NCBI RefSeq assembly: GCF_001413955.1
Contig: NZ_LCTZ01000002.1
Coordinates: 2,838,501 to 2,902,500, forward strand
Length of the DNA stretch: 64,000 bases
DNA from: Flagellimonas eckloniae
GTDB taxonomy: Bacteria > Bacteroidota > Bacteroidia > Flavobacteriales > Flavobacteriaceae
Direction of reading: 5' to 3'
The notes under the pieces were generated by a model, which was not told where the DNA came from, ran no database searches, and saw only the letters and a program-made list of their open reading frames with translations. Below, one piece after another: positions 50,889-64,000 of the stretch (positions are counted from its first letter, which is position 1; the number at the start of each line of letters is the position of its first letter). Both the position numbers and the translations under genes were made by a program.

Positions 50889-51821
50889 TTATTTGCTGAT
50901 TTCTAAGAGAAAAACCAAAATGGGAATGAAAATTAGTGTTCCAAAGGCCAATTCCCTTAATCGCGTCTTCCGAATAGTCTCCAAATAATTGGTCAAAAAA
51001 ACAGCAACAGGGAAAAATGTGATCAAAATGGGGGATGCCCCTTTTGGTTTGAAAATTGATACTATCACCCCTACAATAAAAAATAAAAAAACGATTCGCA
51101 ACACTACCAGTTTACCTCCTCCCTTTTGTCGCAATCGCAGGAATACAACCAGCATTAAAATGAGCATCAATAAAGCATAAACTATTAGCTTATTGTTTGC
51201 ATACTCGCTGAAAAAACCACTGTTAATCGTATCAATTGAAAACGTATAGTGTTCTGCAAAAAAGGAGAGATTATCTGTGGTTTTTAAAATGGTAAATGTC
51301 AAAATAAAAACCGTAAATAGTCCCAAAAGTGGAACAAGCCAATTTTTGACCGTTTTTCTATCATATACATTGATCACCAAAAAAATTAGTGCCAAATAGA
51401 GCAATGCCCAATCGTAAAACAAGCTGGCAATACCTATCAAAAAAGAGGCATCAAATAGTCTGTGTTTTACATTCCTAAGGGAACGAATTGATAACAATCG
51501 CCAAGCCATCAACAGTAGAAAAAAATTACAGAAAATTGCATTCTTGTCTTCTATAGTATCAGAAAACGCAACTATGAGAAATACAAAGAACAACATGGCA
51601 TACGAGCTAAAGTCTGTTACCTTTTCTGCTCGTACAATATAGTTAATGATAAAAATGGTAAAGAGCAATACCCCAATAGTTAGAACCTCAAGAGGTATGG
51701 TATCTAGTATTACTTCCTTATTTTGAATAAAAAAATGAAAAAAACTATAGAAAAGAAACAAAAAAACAGATAGGACAATGTAGTTAATGGGTTTTGTTTT
51801 TCCGAAAAAACTTGAAATCAT
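50889..51821 (-). CDS. DUF6427-like membrane protein
   Basis: 310 residues with about nine hydrophobic segments and short loops. The opening MISSFFGKTKPINYIVLSVF and the RLLSIRSLRNVKHRLFDASFLIG segment match what I recall of the flavobacterial DUF6427 family. The function is unknown. It is divergent from the DUF6341 gene and precedes the DUF4254 gene in the same direction. Confidence 0.78.
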   Translation of the reverse strand: MISSFFGKTKPINYIVLSVFLFLFYSFFHFFIQNKEVILDTIPLEVLTIGVLLFTIFIINYIVRAEKVTDFSSYAMLFFVFLIVAFSDTIEDKNAIFCNFFLLLMAWRLLSIRSLRNVKHRLFDASFLIGIASLFYDWALLYLALIFLVINVYDRKTVKNWLVPLLGLFTVFILTFTILKTTDNLSFFAEHYTFSIDTINSGFFSEYANNKLIVYALLMLILMLVVFLRLRQKGGGKLVVLRIVFLFFIVGVIVSIFKPKGASPILITFFPVAVFLTNYLETIRKTRLRELAFGTLIFIPILVFLLEISK

Positions 51822-51842
51822 GCTGTTCTTTTGCTACTTTTG
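51812..51842 (+). promoter_or_regulatory. promoter of the DUF6341 gene
   Basis: TTG (51812-51814), a 20-bp spacer and a perfect -7 box TACTTTTG (51835-51842); the ATG is at 51862. It is one of the clearest Bacteroidota promoters in the window. Confidence 0.75.
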
Positions 51843-51861
51843 CAACGTAAATATAGCTAAG

Positions 51862-52083
51862 ATGAGCAAGTTTTTTTATGGCATTGAAGACTTATTTGTA
51901 AACGTCCTTTTTGCGCCTTACGATTTTTTCCGTTTTATGGGAAACTGGTGGGGCTCCAATACGATTAATTGGATGTTCTTTGTAATTGGTTTTGTTGCAA
52001 TGATTTATTGGATGAATCAGTTAAAAATTTTCAATGACAATGGTGAGGAGGACAAAAGCATTTCCTCGCACTCTTATCTATAA
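51862..52083 (+). CDS. DUF6341-like small membrane protein
   Basis: 73 residues from ATG 51862; the frame is open further upstream, but that start would precede the promoter. One strong membrane helix (about 36-55; WMFFVIGFVAMIYWMNQL) follows FYGIEDLFVNVLFAPYDFFR. It is a short, conserved flavobacterial family of unknown function. Its last six bases overlap the end of the convergent purD fragment, so this junction looks like the native purD neighbour. Confidence 0.8.
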   Translation: MSKFFYGIEDLFVNVLFAPYDFFRFMGNWWGSNTINWMFFVIGFVAMIYWMNQLKIFNDNGEEDKSISSHSYL

Positions 52084-53253
52084 ATCGAATCCCAAATCCT
52101 TTCTGTAGTACATTCCTTCAAAATGTAGTTTTTCCATGTTTTGATAGGATTTTTGGAGTGCTTCTCTAAAGTCTTTTCCATAGGATGTGATTGCAATTAC
52201 CCGACCTCCGTTGGTTACCACTTTGCCATCTGATAATTTTGTCCCTGCGTGAAATACCAAAGAGTCGGCAATGCTATCTATTCCAGTGATTTCCTTTCCT
52301 TTTTCATAAGCCTCTGGATATCCCCCTGAAACGGCCATAACAGTTGTTGCAGCTCTTTGATCTATTTCCAAATCGATTTCATCAAGCTTTCCTTCGGCAG
52401 TAGCAACCAATAAATCGACCAAGTCATTCTTTATACGAGGCATAACAACTTCTGTCTCTGGATCCCCCATGCGTACATTGTACTCAATTACCTTAGGTTT
52501 ATCCCCAACTTTGATCAATCCAATAAAAATGAATCCTTTATAAGGTAGATTATCCTTTTTAAGCCCTTCAACAGTAGGTTTTACAATTTGCTGCTCGATC
52601 TTTTGCATTAAGATGTCATCTGCAAAGGGAACCGGGGAAATGGCTCCCATTCCACCTGTATTTAGTCCGGTGTCTCCTTCACCAATACGTTTGTAGTCTT
52701 TTGCCGTTGGAAGAATTTTGTAATTGGATCCATCCGTCAACACAAAGCAACTCAACTCTATCCCATCCAAAAACTCCTCAATGACCACAGTGGCGCTGGC
52801 ATCGCCAAACTTGGAATCCAACAGCATCGCCTTAAGTTCCGCCTTGGCCTCATCCAAATCCTGAAGAATCAAAACACCTTTTCCCGCGGCAAGACCATCT
52901 GCTTTGAGCACATAAGGTGGTTGTAGGGTCTCTAAAAAGGCATGGCCTTCCTGCAAGTTTTCTGAAGTAAAACTCTGATAGGCTGCTGTTGGAATAGCAT
53001 GACGCATCATGAACTCCTTGGCAAACTCTTTACTGCCTTCTAATGCAGCTGCAGCTTTTTCGGGGCCTATTACGGAAACATTTTTTAGTTCAGCATCATT
53101 TAAGAAAAAATCGTGAACTCCATTCACAAGAGGGTCTTCAGGCCCCACTACTACCAAGGTGATTTTTTCTGCTACGACCAAGGCTTTAATGCCTTTAAAG
53201 TCATTAACGCCAATTGACACATTTTTAGCAACGCCAGAGGTACCGGCATTACC
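52077..53253. repeat. 1177-bp direct repeat, copy 1 (within truncated purD)
   Basis: The sequence from 52077 to 53253 matches 62684-63860 with no difference in the stretches I compared; offset 10,607 bp, same orientation. Outside, position 52076 (A) differs from 62683 (G), and 53254 (A) from 63861 (C), so the ends are sharp. The encoded proteins are identical over the shared part. Confidence 0.95.
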
Positions 53254-53274
53254 AACAATGTACAAGATTATCAA
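52078..53274 (-). pseudogene. purD: purD fragment lacking its 5' end
   Basis: The frame encodes residues from GNAGTSGV to the normal C-terminus DLGFDL, identical to the complete copy at 62685. The first 33 or so residues, including GSGGREHAIA of the N-terminal phosphoribosylamine-binding domain, are replaced by seven unrelated codons from a possible TTG at 53274. The promoter is also gone. It probably makes no working glycinamide ribonucleotide synthetase. Its 3' end overlaps the DUF6341 gene as expected of the original locus. Confidence 0.88.
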
Positions 53275-53467
53275 ATCCTTTTACCCTCAGAAGCGCGGAG
53301 GTTTAGCTTTGGTGAGAGATCAGTCTTTCTGATTAATTCAAGGGGATTTGACTGACGTCCCCCTTCGAAATAAATTAGGGATAGAACAAATTTTCCATAA
53401 CAAAGGAATCCTATCTAAAACCTTAAGAATTAAACCTACAAATACTTTAAAAATGAGATTAAGAAAT

Positions 53468-53821
53468 TTAATCCAGCGCTATTCCAAAATATACAAATTC
53501 CAAATCACTTTTTCCCTTATTGATTAACTCATGTTGAGATTTGGCAGGTATTCTAAGAAAAGTTCCTGGTTTTAAAGTTATTTCTTCTCCATTAACTTTA
53601 TAAATACCAGTTCCTCTAATAAAATAAAAGAACTCATCCATTGTTTGATGGGCGTGAAGTTCGCAAATTTCGCCAGGAGCAAACATACCATGGGCAAATT
53701 GGGTTAATTTGAAATCTGTATTTTTATTCTTTATGAATACCCTTTTTAACCCAGAAAGGTGAGCTGTGGGCTCACCTTTCATGTTTTCAAGGTACTCAAA
53801 TAACTTCTCCTGAGTTGACAA
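53468..53821 (-). CDS. cupin-domain protein
   Basis: 117 residues, a single cupin barrel. Motif 1 is GEICELHAHQTMDEFFYFIRG in essence (HxH, then Glu), and motif 2 is PGTFLRIPAKSQHELIN. Metal ligands His-His-Glu and His are in place. In such loci cupins act as sugar epimerases, isomerases or binding proteins; the exact reaction is not clear. The start is TTG 53821, overlapping the epimerase gene by 26 bases. It is the last gene of the polysaccharide run before the purD fragment. Confidence 0.83.
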   Translation of the reverse strand: MSTQEKLFEYLENMKGEPTAHLSGLKRVFIKNKNTDFKLTQFAHGMFAPGEICELHAHQTMDEFFYFIRGTGIYKVNGEEITLKPGTFLRIPAKSQHELINKGKSDLEFVYFGIALD

Positions 53822-54785
53822 GACTTTTATTTTTTACCTGTTCTGAAATCCATTTGTATGTAATCTCGGTACTCTCCCTTAAACTCATAGATGGTTCCCA
53901 ACCCAGTTTTTCCCTAATCAATGCATTATCAGAATTTCTACCGGCCACTCCTGTCGGGCCATCAATGTTTTTAATGGTAATGTTTTTTCCAGAGATATTG
54001 ATTATCATTTTGGCATAGTCATTGATCGATATCATCTCTTCCGAACCAATATTTACGGGTCCTATGAAATCAGATTCCATAAGCTTTCTCACTCCTTCTA
54101 CACATTCATCTACCAATAGAAATGAACGTGTCTGTTTACCATCTCCCCAAACTTCGATATGTCCATTGTTTTCTATTTCTGCAACTTTTCTACAAAGTGC
54201 AGCAGGAGCTTTTTCCCTTCCTCCATCCCACGTACCTTCAGGGCCAAAGATATTATGGAAACGGGCAATCCTTACATCTATTCCGTGATTTCTGTGATAA
54301 GTTAAATACAAACGCTCACTAAAAAGCTTTTCCCAACCATATTCACTATCAGGTGCGGCAGGATAAGCTGAATCTTCTGAACATTTGGGATTGTCAGGGT
54401 TCATTTGATTGTACTCGGGGTACATGCATGCCGATGAAGAGTAGAAAATTTTCTTAACTTTTTTGTTTTTTACCTCTTCTAAAACGTTAAGGTTGCATAA
54501 AGCTGAATTGTGCATAATATCGGCATCATTATCCCCTGTAAATACAAACCCTGCTCCACCCATATCGGCAGCAAGTTGGTATACCTCATCCAAATCATCT
54601 GTCACCACTTGTTTGACAATATTAATATCTCTAAGGTCTCCTACAATAGATTCGTCTGCATTGCTGTTTCCATACTCATTTTTCTTTAGGTCAACCCCTC
54701 GTACCCAATATCCTTCTTTTTTCAAACGGTTTACCAGATGTCCCCCTATAAATCCACCTGACCCGCATACTAAAGCTTTTTTCAT
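53796..54785 (-). CDS. NAD-dependent epimerase resembling GDP-mannose 3,5-epimerase
   Basis: 329 residues, extended SDR. The NAD motif is GSGGFIGG (8-15); the catalytic set is Ser in SSSAC (116-120), Cys120, Tyr149 and Lys153. The stretches LAADMGGAGF, FGPEGTWDGGREKAPAA and GDGKQTRSFLLVDECVEGV are close to those of plant GDP-mannose 3',5'-epimerase, which makes GDP-L-galactose and GDP-L-gulose. Reaction assignment rests on these motifs. It overlaps the WecB-type gene by four bases. Confidence 0.85.
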   Translation of the reverse strand: MKKALVCGSGGFIGGHLVNRLKKEGYWVRGVDLKKNEYGNSNADESIVGDLRDINIVKQVVTDDLDEVYQLAADMGGAGFVFTGDNDADIMHNSALCNLNVLEEVKNKKVKKIFYSSSACMYPEYNQMNPDNPKCSEDSAYPAAPDSEYGWEKLFSERLYLTYHRNHGIDVRIARFHNIFGPEGTWDGGREKAPAALCRKVAEIENNGHIEVWGDGKQTRSFLLVDECVEGVRKLMESDFIGPVNIGSEEMISINDYAKMIINISGKNITIKNIDGPTGVAGRNSDNALIREKLGWEPSMSLRESTEITYKWISEQVKNKSLVNSGEVI

Positions 54786-55591
54786 CTATTTTTTTTTAAA
54801 AAGTTTCCTTTGATTAACTCGGCAAAGTTATAATAAATAAAGAGAGGAACAATCTCGAAATATCTTTTCCACAATCTTTTAGGCTCCATTATAAGTCTAA
54901 AAAACCACTCCATCCCTATTTTTTGTACCCAACTAGGGGCTTGCTTTACATTGCCAATATGAAAATCAAATGCAGCGCCCACGCAGCAGATGTAATCGAC
55001 TTTCGTATATTTTGATAGATTAGAAGCAAAAATCTCTTGCTTGGGAGTGCTAAGACCAATCCATACAATCTTGGCTTTTGTTTCATTTATGGTTTGGGCA
55101 ATGGCGGGATAATCATAATCTGAAACATCGAGGAAGGGAGGACAATATGTTCCTGAAATAGTTGCTCCAAATTGGGTCTCACAGACTTCTTTTAGTATTG
55201 CAGCTACTCCTTCTTTTCCTCCGCAAAGGAAATGGGCTGTAGTTGTGTTTGCTGAGGCTATCATGGTCTCTTTAAAAAAATCTGGGCCGTAGCATCGCTG
55301 CATTTTTTTTGCGCCTTTGAGTCTGCCTATCCAAGCGGAGGGCATACCATCAGGAAGGTTCAAGAAGAAGGACTGAAGGATTTTCCTAAATATGTAATTT
55401 CTTTTTGAATATACTAATCCATGTGCCCCTGTGGCGCTCACACATCTTGATTCAAGAGATTCATAGTCGCTCTTTAACAACAGTTTTACCGCTTTAGCAA
55501 TATCTATTGCAAATATATTTATCCCTAAAATTTTTACTTCTTGCTCCAAAAGTTCGTATTTTAAATCCCTGACCGGTTCGCCATTGCTCAT
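54782..55591 (-). CDS. WecB/TagA/CpsF-family glycosyltransferase
   Basis: 269 residues. The GT26 core contains NLPDGMPSAWIGRLKGAKKMQRCYG and IVWIGLSTPKQEIFASN, the UDP-sugar-binding signature, with the usual C-terminal membrane-associated basic helix (FRLIMEPKRLWKRYFEIVP). It adds a ManNAc-like or other sugar to a lipid-linked primer. It overlaps both neighbours by four bases. Confidence 0.92.
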   Translation of the reverse strand: MSNGEPVRDLKYELLEQEVKILGINIFAIDIAKAVKLLLKSDYESLESRCVSATGAHGLVYSKRNYIFRKILQSFFLNLPDGMPSAWIGRLKGAKKMQRCYGPDFFKETMIASANTTTAHFLCGGKEGVAAILKEVCETQFGATISGTYCPPFLDVSDYDYPAIAQTINETKAKIVWIGLSTPKQEIFASNLSKYTKVDYICCVGAAFDFHIGNVKQAPSWVQKIGMEWFFRLIMEPKRLWKRYFEIVPLFIYYNFAELIKGNFLKKNR

Positions 55592-56355
55592 CCAATAAGA
55601 CTTTTCCCAAAAGTTAGATTTGGATTGATAAATGTAACCCTATGTATTTTTAAATTGAATTCAAAGCTTTCAGATACATATAACGGTGACCTGAAAACAA
55701 TGTTGTCGTTTTTTTTGACCTGAAACAAGGGGTGTCCCGCATATATAGTGCCGAATTCCTTACTAATTTCATCTATCCATTCTTTTTTGAAATACCTCAT
55801 GGAGCCATAAGGGAACGCTACGTTTGTCAATTTTGCCCCGAATTGCTGTTTGAAAAAATTTCGATTCAGGTCAAGATCTGTTTTTACATGGGACAATTGC
55901 AAGTTGTTAAAAGGCACATGGGAGAGGCCATGATTCCCAAAATCAAACCCTTCGTGAATCAGGTCAGAAATTTGATCAAGTCCTATTGGCCTTCCATTTG
56001 GTAAGCCCAAAGAATTATAATAGGCACTAACAAGACTGTCATTCATGAGGTTTGGTGCAAAATTGATGAAAAAAGTGCAGGTTGCTCCTTCTTCTTTTAA
56101 CGTTTGGGCCATTTTATACCAACTCTCATAATTGTCATCAAAACTCAGGTAAACTACTTTTTCTCCTGGTTTTTGTTCATAATCATACCCTCTTATCGTA
56201 TAGCCTTTATGTTGGACAAATCTTATGAATTCTTTTAAGTAATTGTTTCCGTCTTTAAAATAATGATGAAATATGTGTATAGTCTCTGGATAAAGTCCGT
56301 CTTTAAGTATTTTATAAAGAAAAGTCCTGTTGAGATTAAAAATCAAGCGCTTCAT
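55588..56355 (-). CDS. polysaccharide deacetylase (NodB/CE4-like)
   Basis: 255 residues. The NodB domain (about 65-230) has motif 1 LSFDDNYESW (Asp73, Asp74) and the metal site HGLSH (His142, His146). Motifs further on (NVAFPYGSMRYF) fit. No signal peptide is evident, so it may act on a cytoplasmic or membrane-bound intermediate. It would remove N- or O-acetyl groups from a glycan. Confidence 0.87.
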   Translation of the reverse strand: MKRLIFNLNRTFLYKILKDGLYPETIHIFHHYFKDGNNYLKEFIRFVQHKGYTIRGYDYEQKPGEKVVYLSFDDNYESWYKMAQTLKEEGATCTFFINFAPNLMNDSLVSAYYNSLGLPNGRPIGLDQISDLIHEGFDFGNHGLSHVPFNNLQLSHVKTDLDLNRNFFKQQFGAKLTNVAFPYGSMRYFKKEWIDEISKEFGTIYAGHPLFQVKKNDNIVFRSPLYVSESFEFNLKIHRVTFINPNLTFGKSLIG

Positions 56356-57427
56356 AGTGTGGTTTAAAGAATAATGTATTTACTTGTTCCAGCTTTTTCA
56401 ACTTATTTGAGTAATCACAAACAATTATTCTATTCTCAAGAATCTCCTTTCTCTTTTGTGAAATGAAGTTCACTATACTCTGAGTATCTGGCAGCACGGT
56501 CAGATTATCAAAAACAGGTATAAGTTCTTCTACAGCTCCCACAGGCAAACTAATGGCAGGTACATCATTCACACACGACTCGAGTACCACCGTAGGCACT
56601 CCTTCAACTTTACTTGTAAGTACGAAAAGGTCTATCTGTGAAAATAGTTCTGACGGAGACATATTGGTCACAAATTTAACTTCATTTAGATTTAAATCAA
56701 TGGCTTTATCTATAACATTGCGCTGGTAATAATTTTCCTGGCCATTAGAGTTTTGCCCTTGTATTATCCAATTGAATTCAATATTGTTGTCTTTTAGGGA
56801 ATGAGCAATTTCCAGACATCTTTCATGGGCTTTTTGCCAATTCCTATTCCCAAGGGTTCCAATGGTAAGGACTCCCTTTTTCATGTTTTTTTCAGCAATG
56901 ACTTCTTTTCGTATAGGAGGAAAAAAGACTTTATTGAAATCATTGATCTCAAGACCATATGCAGCAGCAACAGATTTACCAGTCAGAAGGATTCTATCAG
57001 CAAGGAACTTGTGAATCTTCCCAACTATCTTTCTAAATGGCTTTGGTGTAAATAATCCTGGCATTTCAGAAATGCTTTTCAGCCCATATATCCTAGAAAA
57101 AATCAATCCGGTAATATACAACGACCCATAATTTATGACTGCAATATTTGAATTGAGGTGCTTTTTGAGCTTCAGTGAAAGTCTTATTATATCGAAAATT
57201 ACTATTAATGGGAAAATCAATACGGTTGGAATATTTCGCTTGGTCGGGCGCCACAGACTCAAAGGGCAATAAATTATATCACTATTGTTATGAATGGACT
57301 CAAATTTTGAAATACCTTTAGGTGCAACAATAATATGTTGCTTTTTATCTTTTTTTGTGGCCAATTGTACAACTTGGTTATGGGGGCCTCCAAAAGTTCT
57401 TGTATATAATATGTGGATGCAATTCAT
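56336..57427 (-). CDS. glycosyltransferase family 4-like
   Basis: 363 residues, GT-B fold. The GT4 C-terminal part has LTIGTLGNRNWQKAHERCL and the donor-site FVLTSKVEGVPTVVLESCVNDVPAI (the EX7E pattern). Donor and acceptor are unknown. It overlaps the deacetylase gene by 20 bases. A 387-bp gap lies upstream. Confidence 0.87.
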   Translation of the reverse strand: MNCIHILYTRTFGGPHNQVVQLATKKDKKQHIIVAPKGISKFESIHNNSDIIYCPLSLWRPTKRNIPTVLIFPLIVIFDIIRLSLKLKKHLNSNIAVINYGSLYITGLIFSRIYGLKSISEMPGLFTPKPFRKIVGKIHKFLADRILLTGKSVAAAYGLEINDFNKVFFPPIRKEVIAEKNMKKGVLTIGTLGNRNWQKAHERCLEIAHSLKDNNIEFNWIIQGQNSNGQENYYQRNVIDKAIDLNLNEVKFVTNMSPSELFSQIDLFVLTSKVEGVPTVVLESCVNDVPAISLPVGAVEELIPVFDNLTVLPDTQSIVNFISQKRKEILENRIIVCDYSNKLKKLEQVNTLFFKPHYEALDF

Positions 57428-57814
57428 CTACTTATGGTAATGTATTATAAAGATTGATACTGTATCAGTATCTCTGTACAATCGAACGTCTAAATCTTTA
57501 CAGGGCAAAATAGATGTTCGTGCTTTTGATTTCATCTGACATTATTGCTAAAGGAAATGGATAACAGAATGTTTGACAGGTATTGAATTGCTTTTCTTCA
57601 ATTCCAGAAGGTACTTAATTTTTTTAACAACTTATATGAAAAACGATAATTCTCCATCTACTTTAAATCAAGCCCCAAAAATATGCAATTTTCATTATTC
57701 TGAATACATCCAGAGCATGATGCCTCTTAAAGAGATATTTCGTAGACATTAGATATGAATTCGCCAAAATCTCTGGGTTGAATACTCTGCTTATGCTAAA
57801 ATATGTCCTTGTGT
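57428..57814. other. gap within the polysaccharide run
   Basis: 387 bp without a recognisable gene. A perfect 7-bp hairpin GATACTG/CAGTATC (57456-57472, loop TAT) lies near the GT4 start. A 38-codon plus-strand frame (57636-57752, MKNDNSPSTLNQAPKICN...) has no recognised relative and may be chance. I see no promoter of consensus form. The gap breaks an otherwise overlapping gene run and may mark a deleted gene. Confidence 0.5.
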
Positions 57815-58930
57815 TTAATTAAGTTTGTTAAAAATGTTATTCATAATATCCGAAGTAAGAGCCTTATTTTTCAATGAGGGTGTTCTAGGGATATACCTTT
57901 TGTCATTGGTTAACAATTCACTGAATTTAGAAGTGAAGGTCTCAGGTTGTTGTAAATCCATCACTGCATGCATGTCAAGATCTATCATGTCCACAACATC
58001 AATTAGTTTTTGATGATATGGCACTATAAGCATATTGCATCCTACCAAATAAGCAATTACAGCGGAATGATATCGTGTAGCAATAAAGTACTTGCATTGA
58101 GCCAAAGGCATTACAAATTTCTCAGTACTATCTGAATGCTCATAAATTGTAACCCTGTTGGGGTCGATTTGGTACAAATGCTTTTTCAATTTTTCGCTTA
58201 ATGGAATATCTGATTCCCTAAATCCTCCTCTGAACACAAAAATTCGAATGGATATGTTTGTCTTTTTGTATATAGATCCAATTTGGGGTATTAGACTATG
58301 AGCCCATAAATTGTCTTCACTGGGTTTGGATGAAAAATTAAAAGAGGTTATGGAAATCCCTACCAAGGAATCACTTTTTACCCTTATGTGCTCCACTTCC
58401 CTATGAAGGGATGCCAAATCAAAAGTGAGGTGTTCCTCTGAAGAGAGTGATTTTTGCGATAAGTTGTTCAAATTTTTCAACGAAACTTTATCTCTTACGG
58501 TAATATGATTAGCAAGTAATAAGGATATTTTTGTATATTTTTTGATTGTCGAAGAACCTAAGGGTGCATATCCTACCCCTAGGTAATATACCTTTTTAAA
58601 ACATAGTCTATAAAACAAAGAAATGGTAAGAATCTTTGTAAGATATAAATAATGCCTTTTTAGGCGTTTTTTGTGATAGTCATCATGGAAATGCGTGCCA
58701 CCGCCAAGTATCAATACTTTCGTCTGGAAAAAAATTTTTAGTATGCTCAACAAACTTGGAGAGACATAGGTTACTTTACTTTTAGTGTTACTACTTTTTT
58801 TATTTACAATAAAAATTTTGCCAATTATATTGACCGTATCAAGATACTCTAGCAACGCTTCCAGCATAAACTCATCGCCAAAATTGTCTCCTCCATAGTG
58901 GCCAATTATAAATGTATTTTTTCTTTCCAT
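57815..58930 (-). CDS. polysaccharide pyruvyl transferase
   Basis: 371 residues. IIGHYGGDNFGDEFMLEALL, VLILGGGTHFHD and ATRYHSAVIAYLVGC are the CsaB/WcaK-type pyruvyl transferase motifs (GT-B-like, PEP donor). It would place a ketal pyruvate on a sugar, adding negative charge to the polymer. It overlaps the sulfotransferase as TAATG. Confidence 0.9.
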   Translation of the reverse strand: MERKNTFIIGHYGGDNFGDEFMLEALLEYLDTVNIIGKIFIVNKKSSNTKSKVTYVSPSLLSILKIFFQTKVLILGGGTHFHDDYHKKRLKRHYLYLTKILTISLFYRLCFKKVYYLGVGYAPLGSSTIKKYTKISLLLANHITVRDKVSLKNLNNLSQKSLSSEEHLTFDLASLHREVEHIRVKSDSLVGISITSFNFSSKPSEDNLWAHSLIPQIGSIYKKTNISIRIFVFRGGFRESDIPLSEKLKKHLYQIDPNRVTIYEHSDSTEKFVMPLAQCKYFIATRYHSAVIAYLVGCNMLIVPYHQKLIDVVDMIDLDMHAVMDLQQPETFTSKFSELLTNDKRYIPRTPSLKNKALTSDIMNNIFNKLN

Positions 58931-59802
58931 TACAACTTCCAGCTGTTTTTTGCTTTTTTAATTTCTTTATTCTCAATCGAGCCATTTTGCTCTAACCAAT
59001 CATACAACGTATTGAAAGGTTGTCTGTAGATCTCCAATAATTCTTTGGTGAGTTTGGAATCCAATTTAGGGCTTTTGGTTTTAGATGATATCTTAATCAC
59101 CTCGCTGATGCCGTTCAATGCCTTGGTGGTAAATTTATTGATGGGCATTTTCCTTTCCAGATAAACAAGGGTAGAGGAATAGCTATTGCCTTTCGGCTTC
59201 CTTTTTAAAGAGGTAGGAACATAATCTGGTGAAACATTTAGAAAAGAATAAATACTGCGAAGAGTAGTTTTAGGTGTGTTTTGAATGTCATCGAACAAAA
59301 CCAATCTAATTTGGTCTTTTTCAAAATTTTCATGGAGTTGTATTATAGCATCCGTATATAAACTACGTCTTATCAATTCTGAATAAATAGTCTCAGAACC
59401 GGATCTGTAATCATCAATTGCCTTTCTAATACCATCATCAAGAGATATAGTCTCGATAATCTTTTTTCTCATCAACCAAAAGAAAGCGGATATTGTTCGC
59501 TCTACAGGATTTCGAAGCGCAACTATTATTTTTATGTCAGGGTATTGTCTGCGGGCCTGTTCTATAGAGGTCACGTCCCAAATGTAATCTACAGAGGCAC
59601 TCCCCAGTTTTTGATTGACAGAAGCATCTGCAAAAAGACTTTCAAACCAATCAAGGCCTTTTTGATTGAAGATTTCTCCTCTAAAATAGTAGGTTTCATT
59701 CTTTCCTCCTCCCACGAATAACTCAGGATGCTCATTAAGACAGTGGTAAATCCATGTAGTTGCACACTTTTGGGCTCCAATCAGTAGAAAATCTAGATTC
59801 AT
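58930..59802 (-). CDS. sulfotransferase
   Basis: 290 residues. The 5'-phosphosulfate loop of PAPS-dependent sulfotransferases is GAQKCATTW (8-16), and the 3'-phosphate-binding strand is IIVALRNPVERTISAF. The substrate is presumably a sugar of the exported polysaccharide, as neighbours encode its synthesis. Sulfation and pyruvylation together would give a strongly acidic polymer. Confidence 0.92.
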   Translation of the reverse strand: MNLDFLLIGAQKCATTWIYHCLNEHPELFVGGGKNETYYFRGEIFNQKGLDWFESLFADASVNQKLGSASVDYIWDVTSIEQARRQYPDIKIIVALRNPVERTISAFFWLMRKKIIETISLDDGIRKAIDDYRSGSETIYSELIRRSLYTDAIIQLHENFEKDQIRLVLFDDIQNTPKTTLRSIYSFLNVSPDYVPTSLKRKPKGNSYSSTLVYLERKMPINKFTTKALNGISEVIKISSKTKSPKLDSKLTKELLEIYRQPFNTLYDWLEQNGSIENKEIKKAKNSWKL

Positions 59803-59853
59803 ATAGTTGTCTTCATAAGTAATCTTAAAACCCCCTATAAATTAATAATTGTC

Positions 59854-61068
59854 TTACACTTGTTTATATCTGGCAACTGAATTGGTTTTATGCCTGCCCA
59901 GAGGCCTGCAAAAATGATATGTTAAAAAGAAAAAAACCAACGAAATAGTCTCTTTTACAATAGATGGGCCAATTAGGCTTTTAATTGAAATAATCATAAT
60001 AAAAGAGATAAAAAGCATTTTGTCATATCCTCTTTTCAGTGAAATTCTAAACATTTTGGTCAATACAAGAATAAAAAGAATTAATGATATTATACCGGAA
60101 TTGAATAAAATCTCGAGATAGGTGTTGTCAAGATTACTCTTATAAGCAAAATGAGAATCAACGCCAGGTAAATAAAACCTTGAACCATAGTAAAATCCAT
60201 GGCCAATAAACAACGATTTCAGATCAATATTCTCAAGAGCAAAAAGCCAATATTTTACACGCCCTGTCAGCTCGAATAGTTTTGAAGTATCCCCGTCACG
60301 TAAAATGTAAACATCAATAAAGTCGGTTTGTGAGACTGCATAAAGAATAACAATACAACCAACAAAAAAGAGAATTGCAAATCGTTTAATATTAGTAATT
60401 AGATACAAAAAAACTATTAATGCAACAATCAAATACGCAAATCTGGATTTTGTGCCGAAAATCACAAGAATACCGACAATAATATTGATGGCATCTACAA
60501 GAGTTTGTTTTCTCTTATAAAACAAAAAAGTGGAAACTGCCAACGAGAAGAGTACTAGCTCGGCCATCTCATTCGGTGGGATATACAACAATAGATTACC
60601 AGCAATCCGGTTTTGAGCTATGAAAGACCCTACTTGGGAGTCTGGAAACAAAAGACAGCTAATACTAAAAATCAGTACAATGTTTCTATAAGGAATCAGG
60701 ATATTCTCAGCGCTTTCTGCATGGTTAAAAACTGTTCTGGCAGCGTAAATTAGAATAAGCAGTTGAAAAAACTTTGAAACGCTGATAATAGGGTTTAGCG
60801 AAATGGCTGCACTTAAAAACATAAAGGCGTAAAAACCATTCATAACCCAGTTTTCTCGATTGAATTTGAAGGTTATACCGCTGACCTTACCTGCAAATAA
60901 AAAAATCGAAAGCAGGCACCCCAATGAAAAAATATTGCCAACTTTTATGATACTTGATCTCGCTTGATCAACATCATGAACATGTATGCTGTCTTGAAAA
61001 AGGCCTTTTCCATATACCGCCAACAACAACAATGAAATAAGGATATAATTAGTCGTCCTGGAGTTCAT
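59854..61068 (-). CDS. O-antigen ligase/polymerase-like membrane protein (Wzy-like)
   Basis: 404 residues with about 11 membrane helices and a larger periplasmic loop near residues 250-320 (LTGRVKYWLFALENIDLKSL with the downstream GHGFYYGS), the pattern of the O-antigen ligase/Wzy superfamily. Polymerase rather than ligase is favoured by the adjacent flippase. It overlaps the flippase gene by 20 bases. Confidence 0.85.
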   Translation of the reverse strand: MNSRTTNYILISLLLLAVYGKGLFQDSIHVHDVDQARSSIIKVGNIFSLGCLLSIFLFAGKVSGITFKFNRENWVMNGFYAFMFLSAAISLNPIISVSKFFQLLILIYAARTVFNHAESAENILIPYRNIVLIFSISCLLFPDSQVGSFIAQNRIAGNLLLYIPPNEMAELVLFSLAVSTFLFYKRKQTLVDAINIIVGILVIFGTKSRFAYLIVALIVFLYLITNIKRFAILFFVGCIVILYAVSQTDFIDVYILRDGDTSKLFELTGRVKYWLFALENIDLKSLFIGHGFYYGSRFYLPGVDSHFAYKSNLDNTYLEILFNSGIISLILFILVLTKMFRISLKRGYDKMLFISFIMIISIKSLIGPSIVKETISLVFFFLTYHFCRPLGRHKTNSVARYKQV

Positions 61069-62218
61069 TTTTTCTAAGGTATGAAAATAAAAAATGGATG
61101 GCCCAAACAGTGGGGACCGTCATTAAATAATATACTTCTTTGGCATTTGCAAACTGGAATAGACTTAAAAGTAATACAAGGCCCAATTGAAGCATGACCA
61201 TAAGAAAAAGTTGCTTCCTTTTCTTATTGATTACCAACCATGGGCCCAATGGGCCGGCTGAAAGAAAAAGTACACCGCCTATAAGATATATTGTTCCATA
61301 TTCTGAAACAAAATCATATTGTTTCCCATATAAGAACGCGAATAAGCTTTGAGCAAAAAGAAAATACAACAAACAATAAAATGCGGATAACACCAGTGAA
61401 ATGTTTCTAAGTTTCTTAAATTCAGCCAATCCATTTCTTTTTATTGAAGGAAGAGCTACAAAGTTGATAGCCCCTTTGGTCAAGCTAAATACCAAAAAGA
61501 CAAGACCATGGACACCAATACTGGCCACTGTCTCTTTATCGAAAAATAATGCCGCGTTGAGTTTATCGAATTGAAATAGGTAAACGGTTCCGACACTTTG
61601 AAATGCAAAAGTAATATTCGATTGCCAAATATCTTTTAGGGATGATAATATTCTTTGGGCCTGCTGCTTTATATTAATAGTGCCGTCAAACGTTACCCAG
61701 GCCAAAAAAAAGGGAATAGCGGAACTAACTAAGATGGCGACCGGTATCCCCTCCGTATAGTAAGCGCTGCACAGCAGTACTGAAGCCAAAAGTAATGCAG
61801 ATTTTGTTACATCCTCAATCAAAATGGGCTTTCTAAACGACATGTCGTAGGTCATTGAACTACAAAAAACCCTTGTTATGGATGTGAATATGGCCGCATA
61901 TGCCAATGCAATGATATTATATAAGGGAATGGTCAATGGGGTAAAAGACAACGCAACACCTCCGAGTAAAACCAGATGCCCAAAAATAAGTATGAAACGA
62001 ATCTCATCGGATATATCTTTTGGATTGTTTTTTGCAAAAACTCCATTGTCCAGACCAAAAGATGTAAACACACCCATTACTCTTACAATGCCCCAATAAA
62101 TCAGGAAATCCCCAAAAAACTCCTTGGAAGTAAATAGACTTATTGCAAAAATCACCAAGGCACTACCTACTTTAGATGACAGCCGCAGTAGTATGGAAAA
62201 GACATTCTTAAAATTCAT
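61049..62218 (-). CDS. oligosaccharide flippase (Wzx-like)
   Basis: 389 residues with about 11-12 membrane segments, opening NVFSILLRLSSKVGSALVIF and then FFGDFLIYWGIVRVMGVFTSFGLDNG in the manner of MOP-family flippases. It would pass the lipid-linked repeat unit outward for Wzy polymerisation. It is the first gene of the leftward polysaccharide run. No consensus promoter is seen in the upstream gap. Confidence 0.85.
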   Translation of the reverse strand: MNFKNVFSILLRLSSKVGSALVIFAISLFTSKEFFGDFLIYWGIVRVMGVFTSFGLDNGVFAKNNPKDISDEIRFILIFGHLVLLGGVALSFTPLTIPLYNIIALAYAAIFTSITRVFCSSMTYDMSFRKPILIEDVTKSALLLASVLLCSAYYTEGIPVAILVSSAIPFFLAWVTFDGTINIKQQAQRILSSLKDIWQSNITFAFQSVGTVYLFQFDKLNAALFFDKETVASIGVHGLVFLVFSLTKGAINFVALPSIKRNGLAEFKKLRNISLVLSAFYCLLYFLFAQSLFAFLYGKQYDFVSEYGTIYLIGGVLFLSAGPLGPWLVINKKRKQLFLMVMLQLGLVLLLSLFQFANAKEVYYLMTVPTVWAIHFLFSYLRKNELQDD

Positions 62219-62683
62219 TTTTTTTTAAAGCCTGATAATCTATAATTTGTAACAGATGAATTTGTTTAAGATAATCGTATCTATTCCCAGAATAAGCGAG
62301 ATTTCGTTTTTGAGAATCCTTTGTAACACCTTAATCATCAGTTTTAATGGTAAACAAATTATAATGATGCCCCTTTATACACTTTGCTTAATCCAAAAGA
62401 CAGTGTTTTTGCAAAGATATATGTCTTGGATATACTTCAAGAGTTTCCGTACACTTTTTATACTTTTTTCAAATTTTAAGACTAAATCTTACAATATTCT
62501 TTCAACAAGAGTCAGGGTTTAAAGCCTTACTCTTCATCCACATTGAATGCATTATTTTCTTTGTGAGACTTAGTATATTCTCAAGACTCCTAGACTGCAC
62601 TTCGTCTCAGCTCAAACCAGACATCTCGGGGTGACTATCCAAAGAGATTTTGTCCCTATTTAACCAGCGGTATTCAGAAATAG
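62219..62683. other. gap between the flippase and the complete purD
   Basis: About 465 bp. A plus-strand frame (62256-62522) lacks any recognised domain and is probably chance. A degenerate relative of the dispersed CTCGACT repeat may lie near 62590-62635 (CTAGACTGCACTTCGTCTCAG). No terminator or clear promoter is evident. Confidence 0.5.
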
Positions 62684-63860
62684 TCTATAAATCGAATCCC
62701 AAATCCTTTCTGTAGTACATTCCTTCAAAATGTAGTTTTTCCATGTTTTGATAGGATTTTTGGAGTGCTTCTCTAAAGTCTTTTCCATAGGATGTGATTG
62801 CAATTACCCGACCTCCGTTGGTTACCACTTTGCCATCTGATAATTTTGTCCCTGCGTGAAATACCAAAGAGTCGGCAATGCTATCTATTCCAGTGATTTC
62901 CTTTCCTTTTTCATAAGCCTCTGGATATCCCCCTGAAACGGCCATAACAGTTGTTGCAGCTCTTTGATCTATTTCCAAATCGATTTCATCAAGCTTTCCT
63001 TCGGCAGTAGCAACCAATAAATCGACCAAGTCATTCTTTATACGAGGCATAACAACTTCTGTCTCTGGATCCCCCATGCGTACATTGTACTCAATTACCT
63101 TAGGTTTATCCCCAACTTTGATCAATCCAATAAAAATGAATCCTTTATAAGGTAGATTATCCTTTTTAAGCCCTTCAACAGTAGGTTTTACAATTTGCTG
63201 CTCGATCTTTTGCATTAAGATGTCATCTGCAAAGGGAACCGGGGAAATGGCTCCCATTCCACCTGTATTTAGTCCGGTGTCTCCTTCACCAATACGTTTG
63301 TAGTCTTTTGCCGTTGGAAGAATTTTGTAATTGGATCCATCCGTCAACACAAAGCAACTCAACTCTATCCCATCCAAAAACTCCTCAATGACCACAGTGG
63401 CGCTGGCATCGCCAAACTTGGAATCCAACAGCATCGCCTTAAGTTCCGCCTTGGCCTCATCCAAATCCTGAAGAATCAAAACACCTTTTCCCGCGGCAAG
63501 ACCATCTGCTTTGAGCACATAAGGTGGTTGTAGGGTCTCTAAAAAGGCATGGCCTTCCTGCAAGTTTTCTGAAGTAAAACTCTGATAGGCTGCTGTTGGA
63601 ATAGCATGACGCATCATGAACTCCTTGGCAAACTCTTTACTGCCTTCTAATGCAGCTGCAGCTTTTTCGGGGCCTATTACGGAAACATTTTTTAGTTCAG
63701 CATCATTTAAGAAAAAATCGTGAACTCCATTCACAAGAGGGTCTTCAGGCCCCACTACTACCAAGGTGATTTTTTCTGCTACGACCAAGGCTTTAATGCC
63801 TTTAAAGTCATTAACGCCAATTGACACATTTTTAGCAACGCCAGAGGTACCGGCATTACC
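62684..63860. repeat. 1177-bp direct repeat, copy 2 (within complete purD)
   Basis: It matches 52077-53253, with both edges sharp. It covers the 3' 92 percent or so of purD. Recombination between copies would release a 10,607-bp circle. Confidence 0.95.
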
Positions 63861-63956
63861 CGGAGCAACAAACAGTGTGTTTACTTTCGGGCTTTTAGAA
63901 ATTTTAAGGGCAATAGCGTGTTCTCGGCCGCCTGAACCTAGAATTAAGATGTTCAT
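62685..63956 (-). CDS. purD: phosphoribosylamine--glycine ligase (complete)
   Basis: 423 residues from ATG 63956. The N-domain starts ILILGSGGREHAIALKIS, followed by the ATP-grasp core (about 105-320; YVLKADGLAAGKGVLI, NVRMGDPETEVVMPR with metal-binding residues) and the C-domain (about 325-423). It makes glycinamide ribonucleotide in purine synthesis. It is the only intact copy in the window. A -7 box TATTTTTG lies 16-23 bp upstream. Confidence 0.96.
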   Translation of the reverse strand: MNILILGSGGREHAIALKISKSPKVNTLFVAPGNAGTSGVAKNVSIGVNDFKGIKALVVAEKITLVVVGPEDPLVNGVHDFFLNDAELKNVSVIGPEKAAAALEGSKEFAKEFMMRHAIPTAAYQSFTSENLQEGHAFLETLQPPYVLKADGLAAGKGVLILQDLDEAKAELKAMLLDSKFGDASATVVIEEFLDGIELSCFVLTDGSNYKILPTAKDYKRIGEGDTGLNTGGMGAISPVPFADDILMQKIEQQIVKPTVEGLKKDNLPYKGFIFIGLIKVGDKPKVIEYNVRMGDPETEVVMPRIKNDLVDLLVATAEGKLDEIDLEIDQRAATTVMAVSGGYPEAYEKGKEITGIDSIADSLVFHAGTKLSDGKVVTNGGRVIAITSYGKDFREALQKSYQNMEKLHFEGMYYRKDLGFDL

Positions 63957-63971
63957 CAACTAAAATTTTGC

Positions 63972-63979
63972 CAAAAATA
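63972..63979 (-). promoter_or_regulatory. -7 box of purD
   Basis: On the minus strand, TATTTTTG fits TAnnTTTG exactly and lies 15 bp upstream of the ATG at 63956. The matching -33 box would fall at or beyond the window edge. Confidence 0.5.
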
Positions 63980-64000
63980 CACTACCGAAGTCCCTTTCTA

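Follow-up and report, generated by a model that had tools for sequence, protein, structure and literature searches.

Why should a bacterial chromosome carry most of an essential purine gene twice, with a set of sugar genes in between? The question is raised by a stretch of 64,000 nucleotides from Flagellimonas eckloniae (Flavobacteriaceae; NCBI RefSeq assembly GCF_001413955.1, contig NZ_LCTZ01000002.1, positions 2,838,501 to 2,902,500 of the forward strand), referred to here as the window, in which purD occurs once complete and once truncated on either side of a block of genes for polysaccharide synthesis. The layout gives the impression of a sugar locus, anchored at purD, that has undergone a rare rearrangement, and not of a dedicated docking site. 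The reading we favour, with a probability of about 0.58, is that the block is a relocated part of such a locus, acquired across genera via recombination anchored at purD, and that the purD copies have been newly duplicated or homogenised.

The preliminary description of this DNA reported a long direct repeat with abrupt ends, and base-by-base comparison bears this out. The two segments (Table 1) agree at 1177/1177 bases in the same direction, their starts are 10,607 bp apart and the match extends by 0 bases further at either side. A match of 1.2 kb that is exact cannot be attributed to chance. The repeat represents about 93% of the purD gene. Copy 1 lacks the first 31 or so codons and the promoter and is presumably a pseudogene; as described beforehand it is truncated at the 5′ end, matching GARS_N only from profile position 28, and keeps the native 3′ neighbour, the end of the DUF6341 gene (52083) overlapping that of copy 1 (52078) by six bases. 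Copy 2 lies inside a gene that was rightly called complete, since its product of 423 amino acids matches GARS_N (positions 1-100 of 100), GARS_A and GARS_C. Recombination between the copies in silico removes 10,607 bp and leaves, beside the DUF6341 gene, a purD of 423 codons whose protein is that of copy 2, so such recombination would restore an intact gene.

Table 1. Coordinates of the purD copies, the sugar genes and the junctions. Positions are those of the window, except for those prefixed L021, a stretch past the window end with coordinates of its own.
Feature	Position	Strand	Remarks
DUF6341 gene	51787..52083	+	PF19868; usual 3′ neighbour of purD, convergent
Copy 1, truncated purD	52077..53253	-	identical to copy 2; GARS_N match partial
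Junction J1, truncated purD to cupin gene	53254..53467	.	214 bases; no source found
Cupin protein	53468..53821	-	PF07883; also last block gene in Saonia, Croceitalea and DT_32
NAD-dependent sugar epimerase/dehydratase	53796..54785	-	PF01370; 89-94% amino acid identity to the three relatives
WecG/TagA/CpsF-type glycosyltransferase	54782..55591	-	PF03808
Polysaccharide deacetylase	55588..56355	-	PF01522
Glycosyltransferase group 1	56336..57427	-	PF00534
Polysaccharide pyruvyl transferase	57815..58930	-	PF04230
Sulfotransferase	58930..59802	-	PF13469
Wzy-type O-antigen polymerase/ligase family protein	59854..61068	-	PF04932; NCBIfam gave no match
Flippase-like membrane protein	61049..62218	-	named from position and about 10 hydrophobic stretches alone
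Junction J2, flippase-like gene to purD	62219..62683	.	spacer with TATCTTTGC promoter-like box
Copy 2, within complete purD	62684..63860	-	identical to copy 1
Complete purD, native	62685..63956	-	423 amino acids from ATG; 93.2% nucleotide identity to sister G020, 74.4% to Saonia
purD upstream region	63957..64000	.	alignment with the sister reaches about 23 bases upstream of the start; foreign beyond that
Initiating polyprenyl-phosphate sugar transferase	L021:2599-3948		PF02397; TIGR03025 score 371.6 against a cut-off of 295.55
Second Wzy	L021:4214-5449		PF04932

The usual state of the region is clear from relatives. purD is present in 70 of the 71 genomes of the genus, and in all 69 of the others that hold it a gap of 0 to 60 bases (0 in 62 of them) separates it from the DUF6341 gene, a count from which the second, partial purD matches of genomes G012 and G029 and weak extra DUF6341 matches were omitted. 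The single intact purD beside DUF6341 that had been predicted for related strains is thus the rule. Five genus genomes (L062-L066) carry differing spacers of 44-60 bases between the two genes, and at L064 an 8-base repeat appears on both sides of the spacer. At the 5′ side of purD an epimerase gene occurs in 19/19 genus relatives with flanks of 1.5 kb and in 8/8 with flanks of 20 kb, and the sister species G020 has a different sugar cluster there. The DUF6341 contact, the 5′ epimerase and the sister's different 5′ cluster together indicate that the locus is bordered by purD, with the variable part normally 5′ of the gene.

The same holds beyond the genus. The family set comprised 397 genomes, of which 384 have purD and 377 DUF6341; the comparison covered the 106 that are among both the best 150 of the 384 and the best 150 of the 377, with the copy 1 match of the present genome omitted and G179 added. 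The 106 include this genome; in 102 of them purD and DUF6341 are convergent within 200 bases. The four exceptions to the usual arrangement are this genome, Saonia flava (G201), G465 and G472. In G465 (L056, L057) the two genes lie 47 kb apart and in G472 (L058) 1.1 kb apart, on the same strand in each case; both genomes have a complete purD, a protein search of the stretches around both genes gave no remnant, and the separations are probably ordinary rearrangements. A second genome of the genus Saonia (G399) has the usual contact.

Second copies of purD are rare. At least two matches with E ≤ 1e-10 were found in 8 of the 384 purD-bearing genomes, where at most four candidates were scored per genome, such that small remnants could be missed. 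Those outside this genome and Saonia look like split genes, pieces at contig ends or distant paralogues. In G012 (L044, G012:C75:1-3791) a second, partial purD (codons 226-424, 77% identity) is placed at a contig end, and the next gene is not DUF6341 but an open reading frame (ORF) of 514 amino acids, which we take to resemble a transposase.

Is the duplicated gene itself foreign? The complete purD differs from that of G020 at 86/1272 bases, 75/1176 in the repeated part, an identity of 93.2% as against 74.4% with Saonia. A foreign 5′ end was considered and ruled out, the first 95 bases having an identity of 0.88 with G020 as against 0.73 with Saonia; loci L050 and L051, where the anchor motif was not found, stood outside that comparison and their purD was compared separately. 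The surroundings are different. Alignment with G020 at 89-95% begins at 49.0 kb and reaches 53253; it also covers purD, stopping about 23 bases upstream of the start, and then the intervals 69.09-71.84 and 72.95-75.95 kb. The interval 53254-62683 does not align with G020, and between about 63980 and 69090 the epimerase gene alone does, at 75%. One gene at 71.8-72.9 kb is extra relative to G020. A gene for an NAD-dependent epimerase (L021:9399-10409) lies between DUF6909 and GH3 genes that adjoin each other in G020. Judged by these alignments both purD copies are native and the sugar genes on both flanks foreign. With 0 differences between the copies and 75 from the sister, the pair would be either very young or under homogenisation. 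No donor-type sequence was found in the copy that an incoming molecule would have brought, there being 0/1177 differences and both copies being native, although later homogenisation could hide it.

The 9.4 kb separating the copies encode polysaccharide synthesis, 8/9 of the ORFs scanned (at least 90 amino acids) having Pfam matches. The sugar enzymes that mark a Wzx/Wzy-type locus are present (PF03808, PF00534, PF04230, PF13469, PF01522, PF01370), as are an initiating polyprenyl-phosphate sugar transferase and two Wzy family proteins. The protein encoded at 61049-62218 has no match in Pfam, NCBIfam or PDB sequences and is taken as a putative Wzx flippase. Scanning the nine ORFs with Pfam brought to light no recognisable integrase or transposase; a weak HTH_Tnp_IS630 match in the sulfotransferase falls below the cut-off. 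The glycan cluster proposed to lie between the repeats is therefore there, but it does not end at copy 2. Past it follow an epimerase, the initiating sugar transferase, the second Wzy, a protein of unknown function and an APS kinase (L021), which places purD inside one larger polysaccharide locus. The APS kinase gene (L021:6111-6524) matches only profile positions 46-151 of 152 and is possibly truncated at its 5′ end. As purD separates the sulfotransferase on one side from the APS kinase on the other, the arrangement would fit a single split locus making a sulfated polymer.

That the block is foreign, as had been supposed, agrees with its distribution. The flippase-like gene occurs in this genome alone among the 71 of the genus, bar one partial match of 26% in G031, and in 4/397 of the family: this one, S. 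flava, an uncultured Croceitalea and Flavobacteriaceae DT_32. All the relatives compared from other genera are Flavobacteriaceae. We note two gene orders. Croceitalea and DT_32, with one purD each, have second Wzy, block, sugar transferase, epimerase, purD, DUF6341. Here and in S. flava, for which no literature was found, the order is second Wzy, sugar transferase, epimerase, purD, block, purD remnant, DUF6341. The Saonia remnant beside DUF6341 consists of the last 227 or so nucleotides, is 80% identical to Saonia's own purD and is broken by an in-frame TGA. Since purD touches or nearly touches DUF6341 in 102/106 of the family genomes, we regard the position of the block beside DUF6341 as derived. 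The order shared with Saonia, set against two lineages with the usual one, points to a relocation within the locus that probably predates this genome. Swapping of clusters at a purD docking site finds no backing in these counts: the unusual order is seen in only 2/106 genomes, this one and Saonia, and both have the same cluster.

The junctions were compared with those of Saonia, z scores being taken against 300 shuffles. J3 separates the second Wzy from the sugar transferase at the point where the block is absent; it is homologous in the two genomes along its full length (z = 14.9; halves 10.0 and 8.9), and the two therefore share the lack of the block at its old place. As a control, J3 of either genome against Croceitalea spacers gave z = -1.0 to -0.2. 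The half of J2 on the flippase side is also homologous to Saonia's (z = 10.1), and the TATCTTTGC box of J2 recurs in Saonia but not in Croceitalea or DT_32. Further signals are weak. Against the Croceitalea spacer that runs from the second Wzy to the flippase gene, J2 of Saonia scores z = 3.7, under the best shuffle, and J2 of this genome 2.4, while J1 of this genome scores 2.3 against the Croceitalea spacer between the cupin and sugar transferase genes. The Saonia epimerase-purD spacer has only a 17-nucleotide match to Saonia's J1 (E = 0.016). Searched against the DNA of their own genome, the junction sequences each matched only themselves. A J2 piece of 244 bases matched 59 of the 397 family genomes; beyond its own all matches were short, with E values of 1.3e-4 or weaker, and are taken as chance. 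For the J1 piece the comparison took in its own genome and the relatives whose loci were aligned here. A degenerate repeat-like element was considered in J2 and not demonstrated.

How could such a layout arise? Tandem duplication followed by random loss reorders genes through duplication and reciprocal loss, and a pseudogene footprint remains. The literature found on this process concerns animal mitochondria, whereas the present case is a bacterial sugar locus. A segment that included purD would have been duplicated in some ancestor, after which each duplicate lost what the other retained, so that next to DUF6341 only a remnant of purD was left; because the two genes overlap, part of the purD sequence would be bound to survive at that spot. 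A remnant of the duplicated gene is indeed found at the old place, copy 1 here and the 227-nucleotide piece in Saonia. The rearranged locus would later have entered this lineage by recombination at the purD sequence common to both, in place of the cluster already there, and the present purD pair would have been duplicated in that acquisition or since equalised by gene conversion. Copy 2 would do the purine work. A repeat of this length could also permit occasional deletion of the block by RecA-type recombination, leaving an intact purD.

Gene-by-gene affinities bear on the source. In a four-way comparison of sites the flippase-like gene, the second Wzy, the sugar transferase and the epimerase adjacent to purD lean to Saonia, and purD itself shows no preference (50 against 50). 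Several observations weigh against the relocation proposed. The Wzy, epimerase and cupin genes of the block share more sites with Croceitalea, the other block genes being mixed. The purD-side half of J2 is not homologous to Saonia's (z = 0.0), nor is J1 (z = 0.2) bar some 20 bases after the cupin stop, and these unshared parts would fit separate insertions or later reworking. No remnant of the other genes that a duplication would copy was found at J1, J2 or J3, an intermediate with the full duplication was not found and gene conversion is read from the identity of the copies alone. The split of affinities between Saonia and Croceitalea makes the history mosaic, the cluster having probably recombined more than once, and the block's joints to purD either differ from Saonia's or were remade.

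An alternative is that the cluster was first acquired in the usual order next to the resident purD, and that a recent duplication of the purD stretch, with loss of one copy of every other gene, then occurred independently of Saonia. Native, identical purD copies would be explained without gene conversion, and J1 and the purD-side half of J2 need not be common with Saonia, as they are not. The order found in only 2/106 genomes would, however, have to arise twice with the same cluster, and J3 is shared along its full length, a joint that two independent deletions would rarely make alike. For these reasons we regard independent duplication as unlikely.

Next comes the origin first proposed for this locus, in which a circle bearing the block and a 5′-truncated purD enters the resident purD through a single homologous crossover. 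The geometry stands: as in a Campbell-type integration, the target is directly repeated with one copy complete and the other truncated, the complete purD being on the promoter side, the truncated one on the DUF6341 side and the block between. At J1 and in the purD-side half of J2 the sequence is unlike Saonia's, as a separate insertion would give. The remainder fares less well. Had the circle come from a foreign donor, one of the purD copies should differ towards the donor type, yet there are no differences in 1177 bases and both copies are native, so the circle must carry a native purD piece or, as is possible, a foreign one that was then homogenised. The epimerase, sugar transferase and second Wzy beyond purD are also foreign and lean to Saonia, and a circle with the block alone would not bring them; Saonia has the same order and shares the J3 spacer; and the nine ORFs include no recognised integrase or transposase. 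The short attachment repeat typical of a site-specific element is likewise absent, the repeat here being 1177 bp. On balance integration of a circle seems rather improbable.

An assembly artefact, by false duplication or misjoin at purD, had been named as the main alternative and we think it very improbable: the second contig of the assembly (L023, G000:C1:1-13877) is admittedly a 13.5-kb palindrome with halves 99.4% identical, and 5 kb of it align end to end with the chromosome near 3.38 Mb, but this contig is probably a long-read artefact and not a plasmid, reads of that kind would span a repeat of 1.2 kb, the chromosome is a single contig of 4,118,402 bases and Saonia, an independent genome, shows the same gene order.

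Relocation of an acquired block by recombination at purD, which we prefer, has partial parallels. In the capsule locus of Vibrio parahaemolyticus the border gene rjg lies mid-locus (K17, K19, K32) or is split, and multicopy genes there are linked to recombination or duplication (PMC7829505). On the part of that account considered here, rjg and purD are alike in being border genes that stand inside the polysaccharide locus in some types; the gene is a different one, and the same part describes no long identical repeat around a block. In Streptococcus pneumoniae, natural transformation yields merodiploids when DNA pairs at two places on sister chromatids, giving direct duplications in which an intact essential gene is kept (PMC3784515). 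Those duplications span from about 100 to about 900 kb, whereas here only 1.2 kb of purD is duplicated, around foreign DNA. Homology-facilitated illegitimate recombination (PMC3240628) combines one homologous and one illegitimate end and couples insertions with deletions. It could give both the shared purD end and the abrupt end at J1, an analogy from other organisms. Titles and abstract openings (purD with polysaccharide or capsule, and the Flavobacteriaceae Wzx/Wzy literature) gave no description of a polysaccharide locus bordered by purD. A border gene in mid-locus is thus known; the use of purD, a native purD within foreign DNA and remnants in graded states appear to us to be new.

Might the repeat serve a purpose? 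It is conceivable, though quite doubtful, that the repeat is kept identical and that the block is a cassette deletable by RecA-type recombination, producing a subpopulation with the surface polymer off at no metabolic cost. If so, deletion would remove the flippase-like, Wzy and glycosyltransferase genes of the block, which would be useful, for example, under phage attack, and the block would be regained only from circles or from the DNA of neighbours through purD.

The findings point to purD as the conserved border at which, in this genus of flavobacteria, the variable locus for surface polysaccharide begins, and show that an essential housekeeping gene can remain native with foreign sugar genes at both sides. 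The usual order, a rearrangement with a decayed remnant and a rearrangement that is young or homogenised would together form a series for studying how polysaccharide loci are reshuffled, and the repeat allows a direct and cheap test for spontaneous loss of a surface polymer.

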